NCBI GenBank assembly: GCA_011046135.1
Contig: DSBG01000126.1
Location: 1 to 59,317, forward strand
Reading direction: 5' to 3'
DNA: 59,317 nt
From: Deltaproteobacteria bacterium
GTDB lineage: Bacteria; Desulfobacterota; Desulfomonilia; UBA1062
The position numbers were made by a program, and so were the translations under genes. Below are positions 18,135 to 27,656 of this stretch, piece by piece. The notes under the pieces were generated by a model. It made no database searches and was not told where the DNA came from. It saw only the letters and a program-made list of their open reading frames with translations. Position 1 is the stretch's first letter. Each line of letters starts with the position of its first letter.

Positions 18135-19202
18135 TCAGATGATGTTCGCCAGCCTGAACAGGGTGAGGAATGATTTGGCCGGGAGGCTGCTTCCATGGGC
18201 GCAGAAGGTCTTACGCTCCGACCCGCAGAATCTCGACTTGGTGAAGTACAATCCCTTGAAACTGTAGATGCTGTTGCCGTACCGGTAGAGGAGCCGGATG
18301 ATCCTCTTGAGGATCGGTGACTCGCATGCCTTTTCGTCATCGCCAACCACCAGCGGGCACAACCCCAGGTGCAGGTACTTCACCCCTTCCTCCTTGAAGG
18401 TTTCCATGGCATGCACCATCAGCGGATAGAAGATCCCCTGCCTGAACCGGTGAGAGAACCTCGAGATGTTCGGCGCGTAACTGATGATCCTGCCGTCCTC
18501 GTAGACCGGGTCGAAGAAGATGAAGCCGACGAGTTCACCATCGAGATAGGCGTAGAACCTCCTGGTCCCCTCTTCGTACTCCATCTCCATGGGCCTGATG
18601 AGGAACACGATCTCCCTGTTCCTCACTTTCCTCGTCTTCAGCCACTCTCCGGTGAGCTGCCGTGTTCCCTCGCCACTGTCCTTCTCCTCGATGCGTATCC
18701 CCTCGTTCCTCGCATGGTTCACCGAGGTCCTGAGCACCTGCTTCTTCTTGCCCCTGAGATCCCAGTTCTCAAGATCCACCACCGACTCGACGCCGAACTG
18801 GGTGCAGTAGTACCCGAACTTCTCGTGGAGGAGATCGGCCACCTCCTCTGATACCTGGGCGAACTCGATCTTCCTTCCCGTGAGGAGAAACTCCCTGATG
18901 AGCGTCTCGCGATCCTTCCTGTGGCACACGGGGTCCGCCAATACCGCGTGAAGACCCCAGAGCTGTTTGAAGGCGATGTACCCCATCCCAGGGATGTCGA
19001 AGTACTGCATGCCGGGCTGGAGCCCGGAAAAGGACATGCAGTGATTCCCGTAGTTCCTCAGGTAGACAAGGCGCTCTTCCAGGCTGAACAGATCGATCCC
19101 ACCCTTCACTCCTGCCCGGTAGAGATTCATGGACAGTATCTTGGCCCCGGTCCTATCGTCCGAACGTCTGGGTTGTGTTTCCGCACGGCTTGCAATACTC
19201 AT
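18135..19202 (-). CDS. DUF2156 / LPG-synthase C-domain-like protein
   Basis: 355 residues from the ATG at 19202, which has GGAGG four bases upstream; an ATG 21 bases earlier is less likely. It looks like the soluble C-terminal domain of phosphatidylglycerol lysyltransferase (DUF2156), a tandem GNAT-like fold that moves an aminoacyl group from tRNA to a lipid: FDIPGMGYIAFKQLWGLHAVLADPVC, then LRTSVNHARNEGI, FYAYLDGELVGFIFFDPVYEDG and YLHLGLCPL. No membrane domain is attached. Second gene after HMG-CoA reductase (24-base gap), so likely cotranscribed with it. Substrate unknown. Confidence 0.7.
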   Translation of the reverse strand: MSIASRAETQPRRSDDRTGAKILSMNLYRAGVKGGIDLFSLEERLVYLRNYGNHCMSFSGLQPGMQYFDIPGMGYIAFKQLWGLHAVLADPVCHRKDRETLIREFLLTGRKIEFAQVSEEVADLLHEKFGYYCTQFGVESVVDLENWDLRGKKKQVLRTSVNHARNEGIRIEEKDSGEGTRQLTGEWLKTRKVRNREIVFLIRPMEMEYEEGTRRFYAYLDGELVGFIFFDPVYEDGRIISYAPNISRFSHRFRQGIFYPLMVHAMETFKEEGVKYLHLGLCPLVVGDDEKACESPILKRIIRLLYRYGNSIYSFKGLYFTKSRFCGSERKTFCAHGSSLPAKSFLTLFRLANII

Positions 19203-19226
19203 AGCACCTCCACAAGCGTTCACACG

Positions 19227-20834
19227 CTATCTGTTCTTCCCGAACCGCTCGTGGCTGGTCACCCAGTCAAGGGACGAGAGGGCCCCGGCAAGGGAGATCT
19301 CTCCAGCCACCACGACGGCTATCACGATCTCTGCAAACTTCAGGACATTGCCCGAACCGTAACAACCCAGAATCTCCAGGCACTCCCGCTGGGTGGGAAG
19401 ACCGGTCCCGCCCCCGTGCGTCGCCACGATGAGTGACGGGAGCGTGATGGAACCATAGAGATTTCCCTCGGGCGTCACCTCCGTGTAGATCATGCCCGCG
19501 GATGATTCCGCAATGTTCGCAACGTCCTGTCCCGTTGCCATGAAGAGCGCAGCCAGCGCATTGGCTGCATGGAGCCCGTTGTTCGATGCCCCTGCCATGA
19601 ACGCACCCAGGTTCCCCACCCTGCAGAGATGGTCCAGGGTCTCGGGGTCCACCCGCATGTGCTGGATCATGATCTCCCGAGGAATCACGATCTCGCCGGT
19701 CACCCGCTTCCCGCGCGTGTGCAGCGTGTTGATGAGGGAGGACTTCTTGTCCGTGGTGAGGTTCGCATCCATGTAGAAGTGGCGGACCGTGTTCACCTGG
19801 GTCAGGATCCAGTTGCAGGCAACGAACGTGGCCATGCTCACCATGTTCTGCCCGGCTGCATCCCCGGTGGAGTAGTTGAACCGCAGGTAGACGAACTTGC
19901 TCGCCAGGTACTTCTCCACGTCGAGGAGCTTGGCAACACGGGAGCTGGACTGCGCCTGCTGACGTATCTCCTCCATGTGCTCGTCAACCCACAGCGCAAA
20001 GTCGCGCGCCTCGCGGGCAGAGTCGAACACAAAGGCAGGTGCGCGCTGCATGCTCTCCTGCACCACCGTGGTCTTCACCCCACCGCACATGTTGATGATC
20101 TTCATCCCCCGGTTGTAGGATGCCACCAGGGTACCTTCACTCGTGCACAGCGGAATGAGAAAGTCCCCCTTCGCATACTCACCGTTCACCTTCAACGGCC
20201 CGGCAAACCCCAGCGGTACCTGGGCAACCCCCGTGAAATTCTCGATGTTCCCCCTGGTCACCTCGGGTTCGAACGAATAGTGCTTCACGTGATGGAGCGA
20301 CGCACCGGTGAACTCCTCCACGAACTCCTGCCTGCTCCGCACAATCTCGGGATCATAGTTCGCACCCTTCCTGTACGGAATACTCTGCCTCTGCTCACGG
20401 GTCTCGATGACCGTGTCCCTGGTCTCGAGCTCGAGGGTTCCGTACAGATCCGTCGTGAAGGAGAGAATGATCTCATGCTCCCGGTTCTTGGTCAGTGCTC
20501 CCATCGGCACCTGCACGTCCACATCCTCTCCCATGGGAAAGGCTATCGGGCAGAGCTCACCTATCTCGCAGGCCCTTATCCTCGCACCGTTGCTCCTGAC
20601 TACCACCCCGTCCAGGGGCACCTCGATCCCGTTGATGGTGATCCCGTTGATCCCGGTGAGCACCGCGTCCTTCATGGGGTTCTTGATGCAGAACATCACC
20701 CCACCCTCAAGATTCCTGAGGCTCCCCGCACTGTAGATCTTCTTGAGAAACAGCGGCGAAAGGGTCACCTGCCCTTTCGGCTCCGACGTCCTGCTGATGG
20801 ATACAAGCTTCTGATCCGTGTTCGGATTCCTCAT
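19227..20834 (-). CDS. Hydroxymethylglutaryl-CoA reductase with extra N-terminal domain
   Basis: 535 residues from the ATG at 20834 (GGAAGGA upstream). The catalytic part (about 165-535) is class I-like HMG-CoA reductase, making mevalonate: ENFTGVAQVPLGFAGPL, catalytic Glu near 233 in TSEGTLVAS, Lys in TTDKKSSLIN, Asp in ATGQDVANIAESSAG and a C-terminal His in SHERFG. Residues about 25-145 form an additional beta-rich domain not found in ordinary bacterial or archaeal reductases; it loosely recalls DUF6379-type beta-sandwich proteins, but this is weak. No other mevalonate gene lies in the window. Confidence 0.92.
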   Translation of the reverse strand: MRNPNTDQKLVSISRTSEPKGQVTLSPLFLKKIYSAGSLRNLEGGVMFCIKNPMKDAVLTGINGITINGIEVPLDGVVVRSNGARIRACEIGELCPIAFPMGEDVDVQVPMGALTKNREHEIILSFTTDLYGTLELETRDTVIETREQRQSIPYRKGANYDPEIVRSRQEFVEEFTGASLHHVKHYSFEPEVTRGNIENFTGVAQVPLGFAGPLKVNGEYAKGDFLIPLCTSEGTLVASYNRGMKIINMCGGVKTTVVQESMQRAPAFVFDSAREARDFALWVDEHMEEIRQQAQSSSRVAKLLDVEKYLASKFVYLRFNYSTGDAAGQNMVSMATFVACNWILTQVNTVRHFYMDANLTTDKKSSLINTLHTRGKRVTGEIVIPREIMIQHMRVDPETLDHLCRVGNLGAFMAGASNNGLHAANALAALFMATGQDVANIAESSAGMIYTEVTPEGNLYGSITLPSLIVATHGGGTGLPTQRECLEILGCYGSGNVLKFAEIVIAVVVAGEISLAGALSSLDWVTSHERFGKNR

Positions 20835-21137
20835 CGGTTCCTTCCTTTCATCACGTTCAGGTATGGGTGCAGTATGGTTTCCCTGGATGCGCACTAACCA
20901 TGGTAGTGCAGTTAACACAAAATGTGCCAAAATATGCCTGGGAATTTACGAAACATCTACAAGTTTATTATCAGGCAATAACTGATACTATAAAACCATA
21001 CTCGTGTGATATTCGCACAGTAGCTTCAATGCAGGGGAAGGCGCTTTGGGCGATCAAAGGAAAACATTTTCCACTGTTTTAAGGAAAATATTTTCCCGGT
21101 CTCGGGAACATGCTCATCTCAGCTTGGAGTCTTCACG
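20835..21137. other. A/T-rich intergenic region upstream of HMG-CoA reductase
   Basis: About 300 bases between the HMG-CoA reductase start and the end of the minus-strand methyltransferase gene. Clearly richer in A and T than its surroundings from about 20910 to 21080. It holds the palindrome listed at 20969-20987. I could not settle on one promoter and found no RNA gene. Confidence 0.5.
20969..20987. promoter_or_regulatory. Palindrome, possible operator of the HMG-CoA reductase gene
   Basis: TATCAG and CTGATA form a perfect 6-bp inverted repeat with a 7-base spacer, about 135 bases upstream of the reductase start in A/T-rich DNA. The size and symmetry suit a dimeric repressor. No regulator gene is adjacent. 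Confidence 0.3.
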
Positions 21138-22029: not shown

Positions 22030-23310
22030 TCAATGATTCTGAATCAAGGAAATGCCGTTTCTGCGGGCAATTCTTTTCCAGAATGATCGAACCAGGGGAC
22101 TGCCCTGCTCTTTGATGCCAAGCATCTGTGCAAGCCAGCTCTTTTCCATCTGCTCCGTCTCCCGGAAGATCCCCTCTGAAAGCTCTTGGACCACTGGCTC
22201 GACACGCTCCCACCGGTATCCTGGTACTGGAATGCTGAACCGCTGCTCGAGATCGCTGATCTCGACGGCTATGGCACCAGAGACACGCGCATACCTCATG
22301 AGCACATTGATATGAAAGACCTCGTGCCGCCACCAGTAGGAATCATTGGAAAAAGAGGCACCCCCCTTCGCGAGATCGGCTGGCATGGATGAGGGCAGAC
22401 ACGGCTTGAAGGTGCTCAGACAAGGAGCTGAAGAACCGGTTATGAATATCCTGAATCGATTTTCCGGTTCGAGACACACGACCATGGATCCCGTTGTCTG
22501 TGATCTCCTGATGAGCGGTCCCCTGGCATGCATGCAGACATCCCTGTTGAACCCTGAATTCGGGAGAGGTGCGTGATGCTGCCTCAGCAGGGAAAATGCT
22601 TCCCTCTCGGAGAACTGACCTGAATGACCGGCGATGAAATCAAGGGCCGCCTTCCTTCTTGTCCTGCTGCCGGCAAAAAAAGTCATCACTCGGTCTTCGA
22701 ACCTTCCGACATCTCCATTTTTCTGGAGGGATGCTTCATCCCAGTCTCTGCCGAGCGTCATGCAATTGGATATGGCTGCATGGTTATAATACGACTTCAT
22801 GGCGTAGTCCCTGCCAATGGTTTCAAGCACAACGATTCGTTCCCGGTCAGCGATGAGAAACGAGTTCATGTAGTTGAACTTCCTGTCGCGGTACCCGCAG
22901 GGACCTGCCTGGCCGTACGTCCTGAGGAGGTCGATGATCACCTGAACCGCCTGATGCGCATCGACCGAACGTTCCAGGGCCAGGCGCAGGAGATCCATTC
23001 CGATCAGCCCGGGAAAGGGATCGTGCTTCCGGTTCGTGAAGAGCGCCTCATTGCCGATCACGACTCCGTGCTCATTCACCCCCATCTCGGCACCCCAGAT
23101 CCAGAACGGTTTCGAAAGGACCATGGCATGGGTTGTTCGAACCTGGGGGATGGCAATGTAGGTGCAGGCGAGCACATCACCATCGTTGTGCGTCTTTCGT
23201 GGAACCGATACAACACAGTGAGTTTCATCCGGTTCACGATCAGAGTTCTTTCCGAAAATGATTCCGCCCGTTCCCCGATGAAATGACCGCACAGCAAAGG
23301 TATCGCACAT
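22030..23310 (-). CDS. C69-type N-terminal-nucleophile hydrolase (dipeptidase/secernin family)
   Basis: 426 residues. Starts Met-Cys: Cys2 would become the N-terminal nucleophile after Met removal, the hallmark of peptidase family C69 (PepD, secernin) and related acyl transferases. Conserved stretches follow: IIFGKNSDREPDE, WIWGAEMGVNEHGVVIGNEALFT and NYMNSFLIADRERIVVLET. Ribosome site GGAGGGG just before the ATG. Probably a cytoplasmic dipeptidase or amidase; no signal peptide is seen. It is divergent from the AOR operon. Confidence 0.85.
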   Translation of the reverse strand: MCDTFAVRSFHRGTGGIIFGKNSDREPDETHCVVSVPRKTHNDGDVLACTYIAIPQVRTTHAMVLSKPFWIWGAEMGVNEHGVVIGNEALFTNRKHDPFPGLIGMDLLRLALERSVDAHQAVQVIIDLLRTYGQAGPCGYRDRKFNYMNSFLIADRERIVVLETIGRDYAMKSYYNHAAISNCMTLGRDWDEASLQKNGDVGRFEDRVMTFFAGSRTRRKAALDFIAGHSGQFSEREAFSLLRQHHAPLPNSGFNRDVCMHARGPLIRRSQTTGSMVVCLEPENRFRIFITGSSAPCLSTFKPCLPSSMPADLAKGGASFSNDSYWWRHEVFHINVLMRYARVSGAIAVEISDLEQRFSIPVPGYRWERVEPVVQELSEGIFRETEQMEKSWLAQMLGIKEQGSPLVRSFWKRIARRNGISLIQNH

Positions 23311-23551: not shown

Positions 23552-25411
23552 ATGGCGTCAGGATATGCAGGAAAGTTTCTCTTGGTTAACCTCACGGACA
23601 AGGCCTGTACTGATTTTTCAGTGGACGACCCGATCCTGAAGAAATTCATCGGGGGAAGTTGTCTCGGCGCAAAGCTCTTCCTTGACAGATATCCCGTGGA
23701 TGTCGATCCACTTGCTCCTGAGTGCCCCCTCATGATCATGACCGGACCCATGGTTGGCAGCGGCTTTCCCGGAACCTCGCGGTTCAGTATCTGCGCGAAG
23801 TCTCCTCAGACCGGTATCTGGGGAGAATCAGCCTGTGGCGGGACATTCGGCCCGGACCTGAAAAGAGCCGGGTATGACGGTATCGTCATCGAGGGAAAAG
23901 CCCCATCCCCGGTGTATCTCTCCATTACCGACGAAGGGCCGCAGATCATCGATGCATCAGAGTTCTGGGGGAAAGACATCTACGAGGTCACGAACATCTT
24001 CAAGGAGATGAACCCGTCCTTCAAGGTGCTCGCCATAGGACCAGCAGGAGAAAACCTGGTGAAGATCGCTGCCATCGGCAATGACAAGGGCCACTTCAGC
24101 GGAAGAACCGGCCTCGGTGCCACCATGGGGTCCAAGAACCTCAAGGCCATTGTGGTCAGGGGCAGCACAAAGATCGAGAAGGCACACGACGAAGGCTATC
24201 GGGAGGCGCAGAAGAGGGCCATACAGGAGGTCAAAGACTCGGCCCTCGCAGAGGGTCTCCACATGATGGGATCAGATGCCAACATGGATCTCGGCATGAT
24301 TACCGGTGATGTTCCGGTCAAGAACTGGACCGTGGGAGAAGACTTCCTCCTGTCTTCGAGCCTGAGCGGCCCCACCATGCGCGAGACATACCTCACAAAG
24401 GCCCACGCCTGTTCGAACTGCCCGGTTGCGTGCAAGCGCATCGTCAAGGTCGACGAAGGTCCGTTCAAAACCGACGAGGGGCCGGGTCCTGAATACGAGA
24501 CCTGCGGCACCTTCGGCACCATGCTCATGAACCCCGACCTGGCTGGGGTCATCAAGGCCAACGAATGGTGCAACAAATTCGGAATGGACACGATCAGCTG
24601 CGGATCCGCCATCGCCTTGGCCATGGAGCTCTACGAGAAGGGAACGCTGAGCAAAGATGAGGTCGACGGACTGGACCTCTCCTGGGGGAACATGGATGCC
24701 GTCATGGAACTCATCAGGAAGATCGCCTATCGCGAAGGCTTCGGCGACGTTCTGGCTGACGGGAGTCTCAAGGCCGCACAGAAAATTGGCAGAGATGCCA
24801 TGGATGCCGTGGTGCACGTCAAGGGACTGGAGGCACCGATGCACGACCCCCGGGGATTTCACGGCATGGGGCTCGCCTACATGATGTCCAACAGGGGAGC
24901 CTGCCACCTCCAGCATGCAGTGCTCGCAACGGAACAGGGGATGGCCTCCTGGCCGCAGCTCTTCGACATGAAGGACGACTACCAGGGCACCACGAGCGAG
25001 GGAAAGGCTGCGCTTGTCTTCAACTCGGAAAATTACGGCATCCTCTTCAACTCGCTGGCCATCTGTCACTATGTGGCCTACATCATCAAACCAGAGACCA
25101 TTCTTGATGCATTCAACGCCATTACCGGGTGGAACCTCGGGTTTGATGAACTCCTTCAGGCCGGCATGAGAGACTGGACCATCAAGCGTGGATTCAACAA
25201 CCTGCTGGGGATCACCTCCAAGGACGACAAGCTCCCCAAGAGGATCATGACCGCTCACACAGAAGGCGGGGCCGCTGGTTCCATCCCCGATGAGAAGCTC
25301 CTCCTGAAGGAGTATTACGCTCTCCGCGGGCTGGACGAACGGGGCTACCCCCTGCAGGAAAAACTTGAAGACCTTGGCCTTGATGATCTCAAGACAAGGC
25401 TGTACCGGTGA
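23552..25411 (+). CDS. Aldehyde:ferredoxin oxidoreductase (tungsten AOR)
   Basis: 619 residues, full length for AOR, a tungstopterin, [4Fe-4S] enzyme oxidising aldehydes to acids (or reducing acids with low-potential ferredoxin). Visible: GGSCLGAKLF near the start, the pterin-binding GRTGLGATMGSKNLKAIVVRG, the cluster ligands CSNCPVAC near 288-295 and a fourth Cys near 505 in SLAICHY, and a C-terminal DEKLLLKEYYALRGLDERGYP. Ribosome site GGGAGGACT. First gene of an operon with two SCP2-like proteins and an alcohol dehydrogenase. Confidence 0.96.
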   Translation: MASGYAGKFLLVNLTDKACTDFSVDDPILKKFIGGSCLGAKLFLDRYPVDVDPLAPECPLMIMTGPMVGSGFPGTSRFSICAKSPQTGIWGESACGGTFGPDLKRAGYDGIVIEGKAPSPVYLSITDEGPQIIDASEFWGKDIYEVTNIFKEMNPSFKVLAIGPAGENLVKIAAIGNDKGHFSGRTGLGATMGSKNLKAIVVRGSTKIEKAHDEGYREAQKRAIQEVKDSALAEGLHMMGSDANMDLGMITGDVPVKNWTVGEDFLLSSSLSGPTMRETYLTKAHACSNCPVACKRIVKVDEGPFKTDEGPGPEYETCGTFGTMLMNPDLAGVIKANEWCNKFGMDTISCGSAIALAMELYEKGTLSKDEVDGLDLSWGNMDAVMELIRKIAYREGFGDVLADGSLKAAQKIGRDAMDAVVHVKGLEAPMHDPRGFHGMGLAYMMSNRGACHLQHAVLATEQGMASWPQLFDMKDDYQGTTSEGKAALVFNSENYGILFNSLAICHYVAYIIKPETILDAFNAITGWNLGFDELLQAGMRDWTIKRGFNNLLGITSKDDKLPKRIMTAHTEGGAAGSIPDEKLLLKEYYALRGLDERGYPLQEKLEDLGLDDLKTRLYR

Positions 25412-25449
25412 GATACCAATAAAATTCGTGGTGAAGGGAGGGAATCAAC

Positions 25450-25875
25450 ATGGCAAAGTTCAAGGCAATGACTCAGGAATGGCTCGATGCGTACAAGGCG
25501 GCTATCGAAGCTGATCCGGAGTACAAACCCATGGCCAAGGACTGGGAGGGCAGCGTTGCCCTTGTCTGCAATCCGGACCCATCCAAGGGTGTTCCTGAGA
25601 CGATCTACATCTTCATGGACTACTGGCATGGGGATGTGGGAGAGTTTCTCGTGTGCGACAAGGCAAAGGCCGAAAGCGCCACGTTCGTCATGACAGGAGA
25701 CTATTCCCGCTGGAAGCAGGTGGCTCTCAAGGAACTCGATTCCACCAAAGCCCTCCTGCAGGGCAAGCTGAAGATGAGGGGTGACCTCCCCTACGTAGTG
25801 AGAAATATCAAGACCGTCAACAAGGTGATCGACATCCTGGGAAACGTCGATACCCTCTGGCCGGATGAAATGTAG
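25450..25875 (+). CDS. SCP2-like sterol-carrier domain protein
   Basis: 141 residues. Matches the layout of free-standing bacterial SCP2 (sterol carrier protein 2) domains: a first helix, a five-strand sheet (SVALVCNPDPS, TIYIFMDYWHGDVGEFLVC, ATFVMTGDYSRW), then ALLQGKLKMRGDLPYVVRNIKTVNKVIDIL, the G-K-L/I-x-x-x-G helix region. The fold has a hydrophobic tunnel for acyl chains or acyl-CoA. It is 38 bases after AOR with ribosome site GAAGGGAGGG. A role in presenting a hydrophobic aldehyde or acid to AOR is inference. Confidence 0.8.
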   Translation: MAKFKAMTQEWLDAYKAAIEADPEYKPMAKDWEGSVALVCNPDPSKGVPETIYIFMDYWHGDVGEFLVCDKAKAESATFVMTGDYSRWKQVALKELDSTKALLQGKLKMRGDLPYVVRNIKTVNKVIDILGNVDTLWPDEM

Positions 25876-25883
25876 CGTGTCAT

Positions 25884-25920
25884 GACGGGGGCGAATGCCT
25901 GAAGGGGTATCGCCCCCGTC
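25884..25920 (+). other. Strong hairpin between the SCP2-like and alcohol dehydrogenase genes
   Basis: A perfect 11-bp stem (25884-25894 with 25910-25920, GACGGGGGCGA and its complement) encloses a 15-base loop. No T tract follows (TGTTAG), so it is more likely an mRNA-stabilising or processing element than a terminator, or a leaky attenuator. Confidence 0.7.
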
Positions 25921-25997
25921 TGTTAGAGTTCATCTGCTCCTTCAGGGGAACAGCCCTTTCCAGGTTACTCCCCTGTGGAGGGGAAAAGGAGAATGCA

Positions 25998-27161
25998 ATG
26001 GGTTACGATTCAGATCTTTCCTTCAACTATTTTGGACCTACCAAGATCATCTTCGGAGTGGACTCATCCAAGGATGTCGAGATCGAAATGTCCTCTCTCG
26101 GCGGCACCAAGGCCATTGTGGTGACCGACAAGGGGATCATCGATGCAGGCCTCCTCGAGCACATCAAGGCGGCACTCGGAAACAAGTGCGTGGGGATCTA
26201 CAGCGATATCCCCCAGGACACCGGTGTCGAGGTAGTCGATGCCGGGGCTGAATATGCGAGAAAACAGGGTGCTGACATCGTCATCAGTGTCGGTGGCGGC
26301 AGCGTCATAGATACGGCAAAATGCATGTGCATCCTCCTCACCGAGGGGGGAAAGCTCAGAGACTTCAACGGGATACAGCTGCTCACGCGTCCCCAGATTC
26401 CGCACCTCGTCATTCCAACCACCGCCGGAACCGGCAGCGAAGTTACTACCGCTGCAGTCATCATGGACAAGGAAATGGGACAGAAGAGGCTCCTGGTGGA
26501 GAACCACAATGTTCCCCGTCTCGCCATCCTGGATCCCAAGATGACGGCGAAACTCCCCAAGCTCCTGACCGCCGGCACAGGCATGGATGCCATGACCCAC
26601 GCGGTGGAGGCTCTGCACAGCATTCAGCATGAACCTATCACCGATGGTCTCGCCGTCCATGCCATCAGACTCCTGGCACGCCATCTCCCCACCTGCATCG
26701 AGAACGGTTCTGACCTCGTTGCCAGGGGCCAGGTGCAGATCGCAGCGACACTTGCCGGATGGGCGTTCGGCAATGCTCTGGTGGGCATCGTCCATGCCAT
26801 GGCACATTCCATCGGTGCAATAGCCCATGTCCCTCACGGTCTCGCCAATGGCATTCTCCTGGCTGAGTGCATGCAGTTCAACATCGAGAGCTGCCCGGAA
26901 TCGTACGCACTCGTCGCAGAGGCCTTTGGTGTACGGGAGAGGGGAATGGACGACATGGCAGCTGCCGAGGCGGCAGTTGAGTCCATGAGAGCGTTCACGA
27001 AAACGATCCAGCTTCCCCAGAGGCTCTCGGAAGTCAACGTCAAGGAAGCAGACATCGAAAAAGCGGCCGAACTTGCACTGGGCGACGGGTCCATCGTGAA
27101 CAATCCGCGGTTCATCCTTGATTCATCAGAGGTGTTAGGTATCTTCAAGAACGTGCTATGA
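25998..27161 (+). CDS. Iron-containing alcohol dehydrogenase
   Basis: 387 residues. NAD(P)-binding GGGSVIDTAK and the metal site of group III dehydrogenases (GMDAMTHAVEALHS plus two histidines in AHSIGAIAHVPHGLANGILL). Interconverts an alcohol and an aldehyde. Beside AOR this gives an alcohol-aldehyde-acid sequence of oxidations. Ribosome site GGAGAATGCAATG just before the ATG. A 7-bp hairpin follows at 27167-27199. Confidence 0.93.
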   Translation: MGYDSDLSFNYFGPTKIIFGVDSSKDVEIEMSSLGGTKAIVVTDKGIIDAGLLEHIKAALGNKCVGIYSDIPQDTGVEVVDAGAEYARKQGADIVISVGGGSVIDTAKCMCILLTEGGKLRDFNGIQLLTRPQIPHLVIPTTAGTGSEVTTAAVIMDKEMGQKRLLVENHNVPRLAILDPKMTAKLPKLLTAGTGMDAMTHAVEALHSIQHEPITDGLAVHAIRLLARHLPTCIENGSDLVARGQVQIAATLAGWAFGNALVGIVHAMAHSIGAIAHVPHGLANGILLAECMQFNIESCPESYALVAEAFGVRERGMDDMAAAEAAVESMRAFTKTIQLPQRLSEVNVKEADIEKAAELALGDGSIVNNPRFILDSSEVLGIFKNVL

Positions 27162-27166
27162 TCACT

Positions 27167-27199
27167 CCTGGCAGGGGGACGGCGCTCCCTCATGCCAGG
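27167..27199 (+). other. Hairpin between the alcohol dehydrogenase and second SCP2-like genes
   Basis: CCTGGCA (27167-27173) pairs with TGCCAGG (27193-27199), with an inner G-rich to C-rich pairing (GGGGA and TCCCT). No T run follows, so as in the preceding gap it looks like an mRNA-processing or stability element. Confidence 0.55.
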
Positions 27200-27236
27200 T
27201 CATGATACCGTGGACGAGTACAAGAGGAGGACTACC

Positions 27237-27656
27237 ATGGCAGGCGAATTTATTGAAAACCAGGCGGATGAGGTTCCGTTCTCATACGTGATCGCAGAGC
27301 TTCTCGCCTCGAACCTTGACCAGAACCCTCACAAGATGAGGACCTTTCAGAAGATCTACGGGGTCGTTGCCATCGATCTCCCGGACATCGAGGCGGCCGT
27401 CACCCTCATCTTCTCAGGGGGGAAGCTGAAAATCCTGAAAGGGATCGTGGGCAAGCCCGACCTGATCATCAGGACAGAGTCGGACAAGGTGATCGGACTC
27501 AACAGCATCTCCGTCAAGTTCGGACTGCCCTACTACTTCGATGAAGCCGGCCTCACGGTTTTAAAGCAGCTGGCCCGGGGAGAAATCAAGATTGAGGGCA
27601 TGCTTGCGCACCCCATCATCCTGACGAGGCTGACCAAAATCATGTCGGTGATGTAG
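27237..27656 (+). CDS. Second SCP2-like sterol-carrier domain protein
   Basis: 139 residues from the ATG at 27237, preceded by GAGGAGG. SCP2-like pattern: FQKIYGVVAIDLPDIEAAVTLIFSGGKLKIL, GKPDLIIRTESDKVIGL, then LARGEIKIEGMLAHPIILTRLTKIM. Different in detail from the one at 25450, so not a recent duplicate. Last gene of the AOR group. Ligand unknown; SCP2 domains bind lipids or acyl-CoA. Confidence 0.75.
   Translation: MAGEFIENQADEVPFSYVIAELLASNLDQNPHKMRTFQKIYGVVAIDLPDIEAAVTLIFSGGKLKILKGIVGKPDLIIRTESDKVIGLNSISVKFGLPYYFDEAGLTVLKQLARGEIKIEGMLAHPIILTRLTKIMSVM

Follow-up and report, generated by a model that had tools for sequence, protein, structure and literature searches.

A Conserved Four-Gene Unit in Desulfobacterota Interleaves an Aldehyde Oxidoreductase and an Alcohol Dehydrogenase With Two SCP2-Like Proteins

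Why should the genes for a tungsten-type aldehyde:ferredoxin oxidoreductase (AOR) and an alcohol dehydrogenase (ADH) each be followed by a gene for a different small SCP2-like protein, and what might the four products do together? The question is raised by a 59,317-nucleotide stretch of DNA (the window), contig 7 of a 2.9 Mb genome that is 99% complete. A preliminary description reported that an AOR and a group III ADH are interleaved here with two SCP2-like proteins, and Pfam matches and structure models place all four genes at positions 23552-27656. Below we describe the unit, its conservation and the occurrence of SCP2 neighbours beside other AORs, and weigh what the SCP2-like proteins may contribute.

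Anatomy of the locus and predicted features of its proteins

The four genes lie consecutively on the + strand in the order AOR (23552..25411), SCP2A (25450..25875), iron-type ADH (25998..27161), and SCP2B (27237..27656), encode proteins of 619, 141, 387, and 139 aa, and are separated by gaps of 38, 122, and 75 nt, respectively. Purine-rich Shine-Dalgarno sequences stand upstream of all four start codons. The SCP2B start is most likely at 27237, after AAGAGGAGGACTACC, and not at 27192, because a Shine-Dalgarno sequence precedes it and relatives begin there too. Values of dN/dS between 0.03 and 0.27 across the four genes indicate strong purifying selection. The gap between SCP2A and the ADH contains a strong, GC-rich hairpin without a T-run (25883..25920, + strand, folded with RNAfold), which may set unequal levels of the two operon halves. 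A conserved RNA structure in this gap was considered and rejected, because the long gaps in relatives, although they fold too, do so dissimilarly. Just upstream, on the opposite strand (18135-20930), lie an HMG-CoA reductase and then a stand-alone MprF-like LPG synthase C domain, shared with a single relative (L027), while a protein resembling acyl-CoA:6-aminopenicillanate acyltransferase (AAT/C45), under the Pfam cut-off, is encoded at 22030-23310 and is divergent from the AOR.

The AOR matches the Pfam domains AFOR_C (7.7e-125) and AFOR_N (3.5e-72) over its full length, and its nearest solved structures are AORs, among them that of P. furiosus (1aor). The four Fe4S4 cysteines (P. furiosus C288, C291, C295, and C494) and the active-site residues E313 and H448 are present, and we take their roles to be those known for 1aor. 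Among the cassette AORs, the cysteines and the histidine occur in 18/18 and the active-site glutamate in 17/18. The P. furiosus pterin-motif residues Asp338 and Asp489 and the mononuclear-iron ligands E332 and H383 are replaced in the window AOR by Asn, Asn, Lys, and a hydrophobic residue, but because many of the other AORs compared lack them as well, they are features of the P. furiosus enzyme and not of the whole family. The ADH matches Fe-ADH (1.2e-45) and ADH_Fe_C (7.2e-54), keeps the GGGS nucleotide motif, and bears the metal ligands D197, H201, H266, and H280, which are invariant in 21 relatives. It also has an aspartate, D44, which by analogy with FucO presumably confers a preference for NAD. 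Judged by sequence, both enzymes retain their predicted catalytic residues, iron-sulfur and active-site residues in the AOR and metal ligands in the ADH.

The preliminary description had assigned both small proteins to the SCP2 fold, an assignment that is upheld by Pfam, whose cut-off both proteins pass, and by predicted structures that agree with it. SCP2A matches Pfam SCP2 with an E-value of 1.2e-11, and its AlphaFold (AF2) model (pLDDT 92.5, built on 23 relatives) finds as its best Foldseek matches the Thermus SCP2 structures 1wfr and 2cx7 (TM 0.82-0.83; 2cx7 at 1.6-1.8 Å). The Pfam match of SCP2B (E 2.2e-4; 21.9 bits, the cut-off being 21.3) is weak taken alone, so it is the AlphaFold models and the fold search that settle both proteins as predicted SCP2 folds. 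For SCP2B, the model (pLDDT 85, built on 20 relatives) is closest to the UbiJ-SCP2 structures 6h6n/o/p (E 4e-6, TM about 0.57-0.59), and the Foldseek matches below E=1e-3 are SCP2 proteins without exception. We also considered whether SCP2A and SCP2B are recent duplicates, and rejected this when a profile comparison gave no real similarity between them.

Conservation of the four-gene order

Searching GTDB genomes with SCP2A as the query returned 22 loci, and an AOR lies directly upstream of SCP2A in 22/22. The full order AOR-SCP2A-ADH-SCP2B is present in 19 of them, the other three (L020, L028, and L029) being truncated by contig ends. A scan of the phylum added 12 loci from the Desulfobacterota families f7, f9, f30, f33, and f93; ten are complete, and in the other two (L082 and L083) the contig edge follows immediately after SCP2A. 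The four-gene order is therefore intact in every relative that is not cut by a contig end, and the absence of conserved gene order that the preliminary description had named as grounds for abandoning its proposal did not occur. In the phylum scan, 21 SCP2A homologues score above 93 bits, and every one of them adjoins an AOR. The nearest cassette relatives are MAGs named Syntrophaceae, Syntrophales, or deltaproteobacterial, and the group that carries the unit consists of anaerobic bacteria of sediments. Within the organism's own family SCP2B was found in 15/24 genomes and 4/10 genera, so the module is patchy at this level.

When neighbouring genes were clustered across all loci, near and far sets shared the four genes only, plus their antisense and out-of-frame shadows. 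Because the flanking genes are not kept, the conserved unit is exactly the four genes. A larger operon was rejected on the same grounds, the HMG-CoA reductase and its neighbours being common to L027 only. A chance or regional neighbourhood, in which SCP2 genes merely happen to lie beside an AOR, has next to no probability; no evidence in its favour emerged, and it was ruled out by the conservation of gene order: the order is kept in all uncut loci while the flanks vary, and distinct AOR-SCP2 arrangements recur in other places.

Some loci depart from the common pattern. One genome (G051) carries two cassette copies (L089 10425-12317 and L090 10498-12258), and its assembly may be chimeric. Stop-codon readthrough was rejected as an account of the split AORs at these loci, since a single frame runs through; around residues 70-112, L089 has a local duplication and L090 a local deletion, possibly an assembly artefact. 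The gap in the AOR of L082 is a run of N. Another genome (G224) contains a second ADH-SCP2B pair (L084 15743-17192) with no adjoining AOR or SCP2A, in which the N-terminus of the ADH is shortened and the visible start of SCP2B is identical.

AORs with and without SCP2 neighbours

AOR neighbourhoods were also sampled by AOR score alone within one phylum, the Desulfobacterota, and arrangement types were labelled with profiles built in this analysis and checked against Pfam where stated. Eight genomes contain the order ADH-SCP2-AOR (type II), with an SCP2 protein of a subfamily distinct from both SCP2A and SCP2B that scores over the Pfam cut-off in 8/8 (E 3.6e-6 to 4e-11). A further genome (G086) has SCP2-AOR without an ADH, its SCP2 being unmatched by Pfam and assigned by our own profile only. 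The order SCP2-SCP2-AOR occurs in three genomes (G336, which also has type II, G018, and G011); at L094, in G336, it lies among genes for an acyl-CoA dehydrogenase, ETF, an AMP-forming ligase, and a 2-hydroxyacyl-CoA dehydratase-type protein, and at L095 near an AMP-ligase-like gene and a 2-hydroxyacyl-CoA dehydratase-type gene. An SCP2A-like protein that Pfam does not confirm is encoded about 2 kb from an AOR in another three genomes. Altogether, an SCP2 neighbour accompanies roughly 12 of the 75 AORs sampled by score alone, or 9 without the three that Pfam does not confirm, and we estimate the chance expectation for such adjacency at about 1-2% from the eight SCP2 matches in the 2.9 Mb genome. 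On a tree of 102 AOR sequences, SCP2 linkage requires at least five changes.

The co-occurrence of AOR and SCP2 suggested in the preliminary description thus holds in part. It recurs in further arrangements, but an SCP2 neighbour is absent beside most of the sampled AORs, including the other eight AOR-family matches above cut-off in the window's own genome (two of them on short contigs). SCP2 neighbours are likewise lacking for the AOR homologues of family f3, which branch immediately outside the cassette clade; not every such AOR therefore requires SCP2, although these homologues may act on a different substrate from the cassette AORs. Three AORs inspected on plasmids from outside the Desulfobacterota have no annotated SCP2 gene adjacent. 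Also near the cassette clade are AORs of two genomes (L121-L124; G061 and G024) that lie, without SCP2, beside a succinyl-CoA-ligase-like protein or an acyl-CoA dehydrogenase, and in two of them Gln replaces the active-site Glu.

These distributions bear on whether the SCP2-fold proteins might be structural subunits, or maturation or stability factors, of the AOR and ADH, in which case the substrate could be small and soluble. Among 23 relatives, SCP2A has a mean column identity of 82%. It evolves as slowly as the enzymes and carries many near-invariant polar residues, including those of the C-terminal helix RNIKTVNKVID, which could point to a structural subunit and count against a carrier. 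Accessory proteins of AORs do exist, AorDE being putative maturation factors in Aromatoleum (PMC9295118), although the accessories in that AorABCDE system are a polyferredoxin, an FAD subunit, and maturation factors, with no SCP2. The scarcity of SCP2 neighbours among the sampled AORs, however, argues against a general maturation factor, and the use of two unlike SCP2 subfamilies, with a third in type II, points instead to the hydrophobic pocket that they share. We consider a structural or maturation role unlikely.

A putative carrier-assisted route and its relation to known systems

The route by which AOR and ADH interconvert alcohols, aldehydes, and acids is established (PMC10816221), and the reading of the present pair as a probable case of it is well founded. 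As in the AOR-ADH pathway of Thermoanaerobacter and acetogens, a tungsten-type AOR is combined here with an alcohol dehydrogenase; their genes are linked and the linkage is conserved, and the two enzymes may act on one substrate series. That pathway is not known to include SCP2 partners, whereas the present unit comprises four linked genes, with a putative carrier after each enzyme, in Desulfobacterota.

SCP2 domains are binders of apolar ligands. For the SCP2 proteins themselves, a precedent is UbiJ of the E. coli Ubi metabolon, a stand-alone SCP2-fold accessory of soluble enzymes that is proposed to bind hydrophobic ubiquinone intermediates by their polyprenyl tail (PMC9499169), and whose SCP2 domain is the closest solved fold to SCP2B. 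At 139 aa against 201 for UbiJ, SCP2B has the length of the SCP2 domain alone, without the C-terminal coiled coil that binds UbiK; UbiK is absent and the enzymes are others. Alkyl sulfatases (SdsA1, SdsAP, and Pisa1) also combine an SCP2 fold with an enzyme for alkyl substrates (PMC5426288), but there the SCP2-like domain is fused at the C-terminus and the enzyme is a hydrolase and not an oxidoreductase. A third comparison comes from plasmid pHME132 of Haloferax mediterranei (L213), which encodes alkyl sulfatase-type proteins, an ALDH, a Zn-ADH, an SCP2 protein, a long-chain fatty-acid-CoA ligase, and an acyl-CoA dehydrogenase. Its SCP2 gene, one of only two SCP2A relatives in the plasmid collection and only 24% identical, lies downstream of the alkyl-sulfatase-type genes, between the ALDH/ADH pair and the ligase. 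This archaeal cluster, predicted from its genes, shares with the present unit an ADH and an aldehyde-converting enzyme beside an SCP2A-like protein, with fatty-acid activation genes, but it has an NAD-type ALDH instead of an AOR, a zinc ADH, and one SCP2. It possibly represents an archaeal long-chain alcohol pathway; on two other plasmids, relatives of the Haloferax SCP2 have no such gene context.

By analogy with these SCP2 roles (UbiJ and the alkyl sulfatases), and from gene context, the SCP2 proteins most likely ferry or hold a hydrophobic substrate. We hypothesize, with somewhat more than even confidence, that the four-gene module interconverts poorly water-soluble alcohols, aldehydes, and acids while its SCP2 proteins hold the substrate. 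The ADH would convert alcohol and aldehyde with NAD(H), the AOR would convert aldehyde and acid with ferredoxin, and the SCP2-fold protein after each enzyme would bind the hydrophobic part of the substrate or intermediate and present it to the neighbouring enzyme, much as proposed for UbiJ. In type I each enzyme gene is followed by its own SCP2 gene, and in type II a single SCP2 gene lies between those for the ADH and the AOR. The analysis establishes the genes, the two predicted folds, the retention of catalytic residues, the conservation of the module, and the recurrence of AOR with SCP2 (and ADH) in other arrangements; we infer ligand binding, contact between enzyme and carrier, the substrate and its chain length, and the direction of flux. 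The type II order, the acyl-CoA genes around SCP2-SCP2-AOR, and the Haloferax cluster all speak for the carrier reading. Against it, SCP2 folds also serve without a proven carrier function, and some characterised AORs need no carrier to accept nonanal and decanal (PMC10816221).

The carrier-assisted route more likely runs oxidatively, and our guess is that medium- or long-chain or otherwise apolar alcohols and aldehydes would be oxidised to acids for acyl-CoA metabolism, yielding NADH and reduced ferredoxin; the 33 AMP-binding matches in the window's genome fit an acid-activating metabolism. Instead of catabolism, the operon might scavenge hydrophobic aldehydes released when lipids or hydrocarbons are broken down, with SCP2 sequestering them. 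Detoxification is among the proposed roles of AORs (PMC10816221), and operon anatomy does not separate it from catabolism, but the presence of a dedicated ADH, and of an SCP2 to go with it, suggests that alcohols also belong to the pathway, and the genome encodes eight further AOR-family matches; we regard detoxification as improbable. The reverse conversion of acid to alcohol is chemically possible, and a little less probable still is a module in which reduced ferredoxin drives free fatty acids through aldehyde to alcohol, for instance for alcohol export or alkyl lipids. Acid reduction by AOR and ADH has been demonstrated in other anaerobes (PMC10816221), and the AOR is the first gene of the operon, but neighbour clustering found no lipid-synthesis partner gene conserved beside the module, and the Haloferax analogue sits in an apparently catabolic cluster.

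AOR-ADH pairs and SCP2-assisted enzymes are each known, and it is their fixed combination that seems new. A search of an open-access literature library found no paper joining AOR with SCP2 or with sterol carrier or binding terms, in agreement with the preliminary statement that no AOR-SCP2 system has been described. More tentatively than the carrier reading itself, we suggest that such modules could form a novel class of tungsten-enzyme metabolon. Its SCP2 carriers would pass alcohols, aldehydes, and acids that do not dissolve in water between two enzymes, an iron ADH and an AOR, and would thereby offer syntrophic Desulfobacterota a CoA-independent long-chain alcohol/fatty acid route; types I, II, and IV would be its variants on separate AOR branches. 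AORs are sought after as acid reductases, yet for many of them no substrate is known, and the conserved SCP2 partner is a pointer to hydrophobic substrates and substrate channelling in this clade. If true, the proposal would assign a role to the small SCP2 proteins of bacteria and shed light on how syntrophs deal with oily alcohols and aldehydes. Elsewhere in the window's genome (L212 2521-4623; G000 C153), an SCP2 protein of the type II kind directly adjoins an AMP-binding acyl-CoA ligase.
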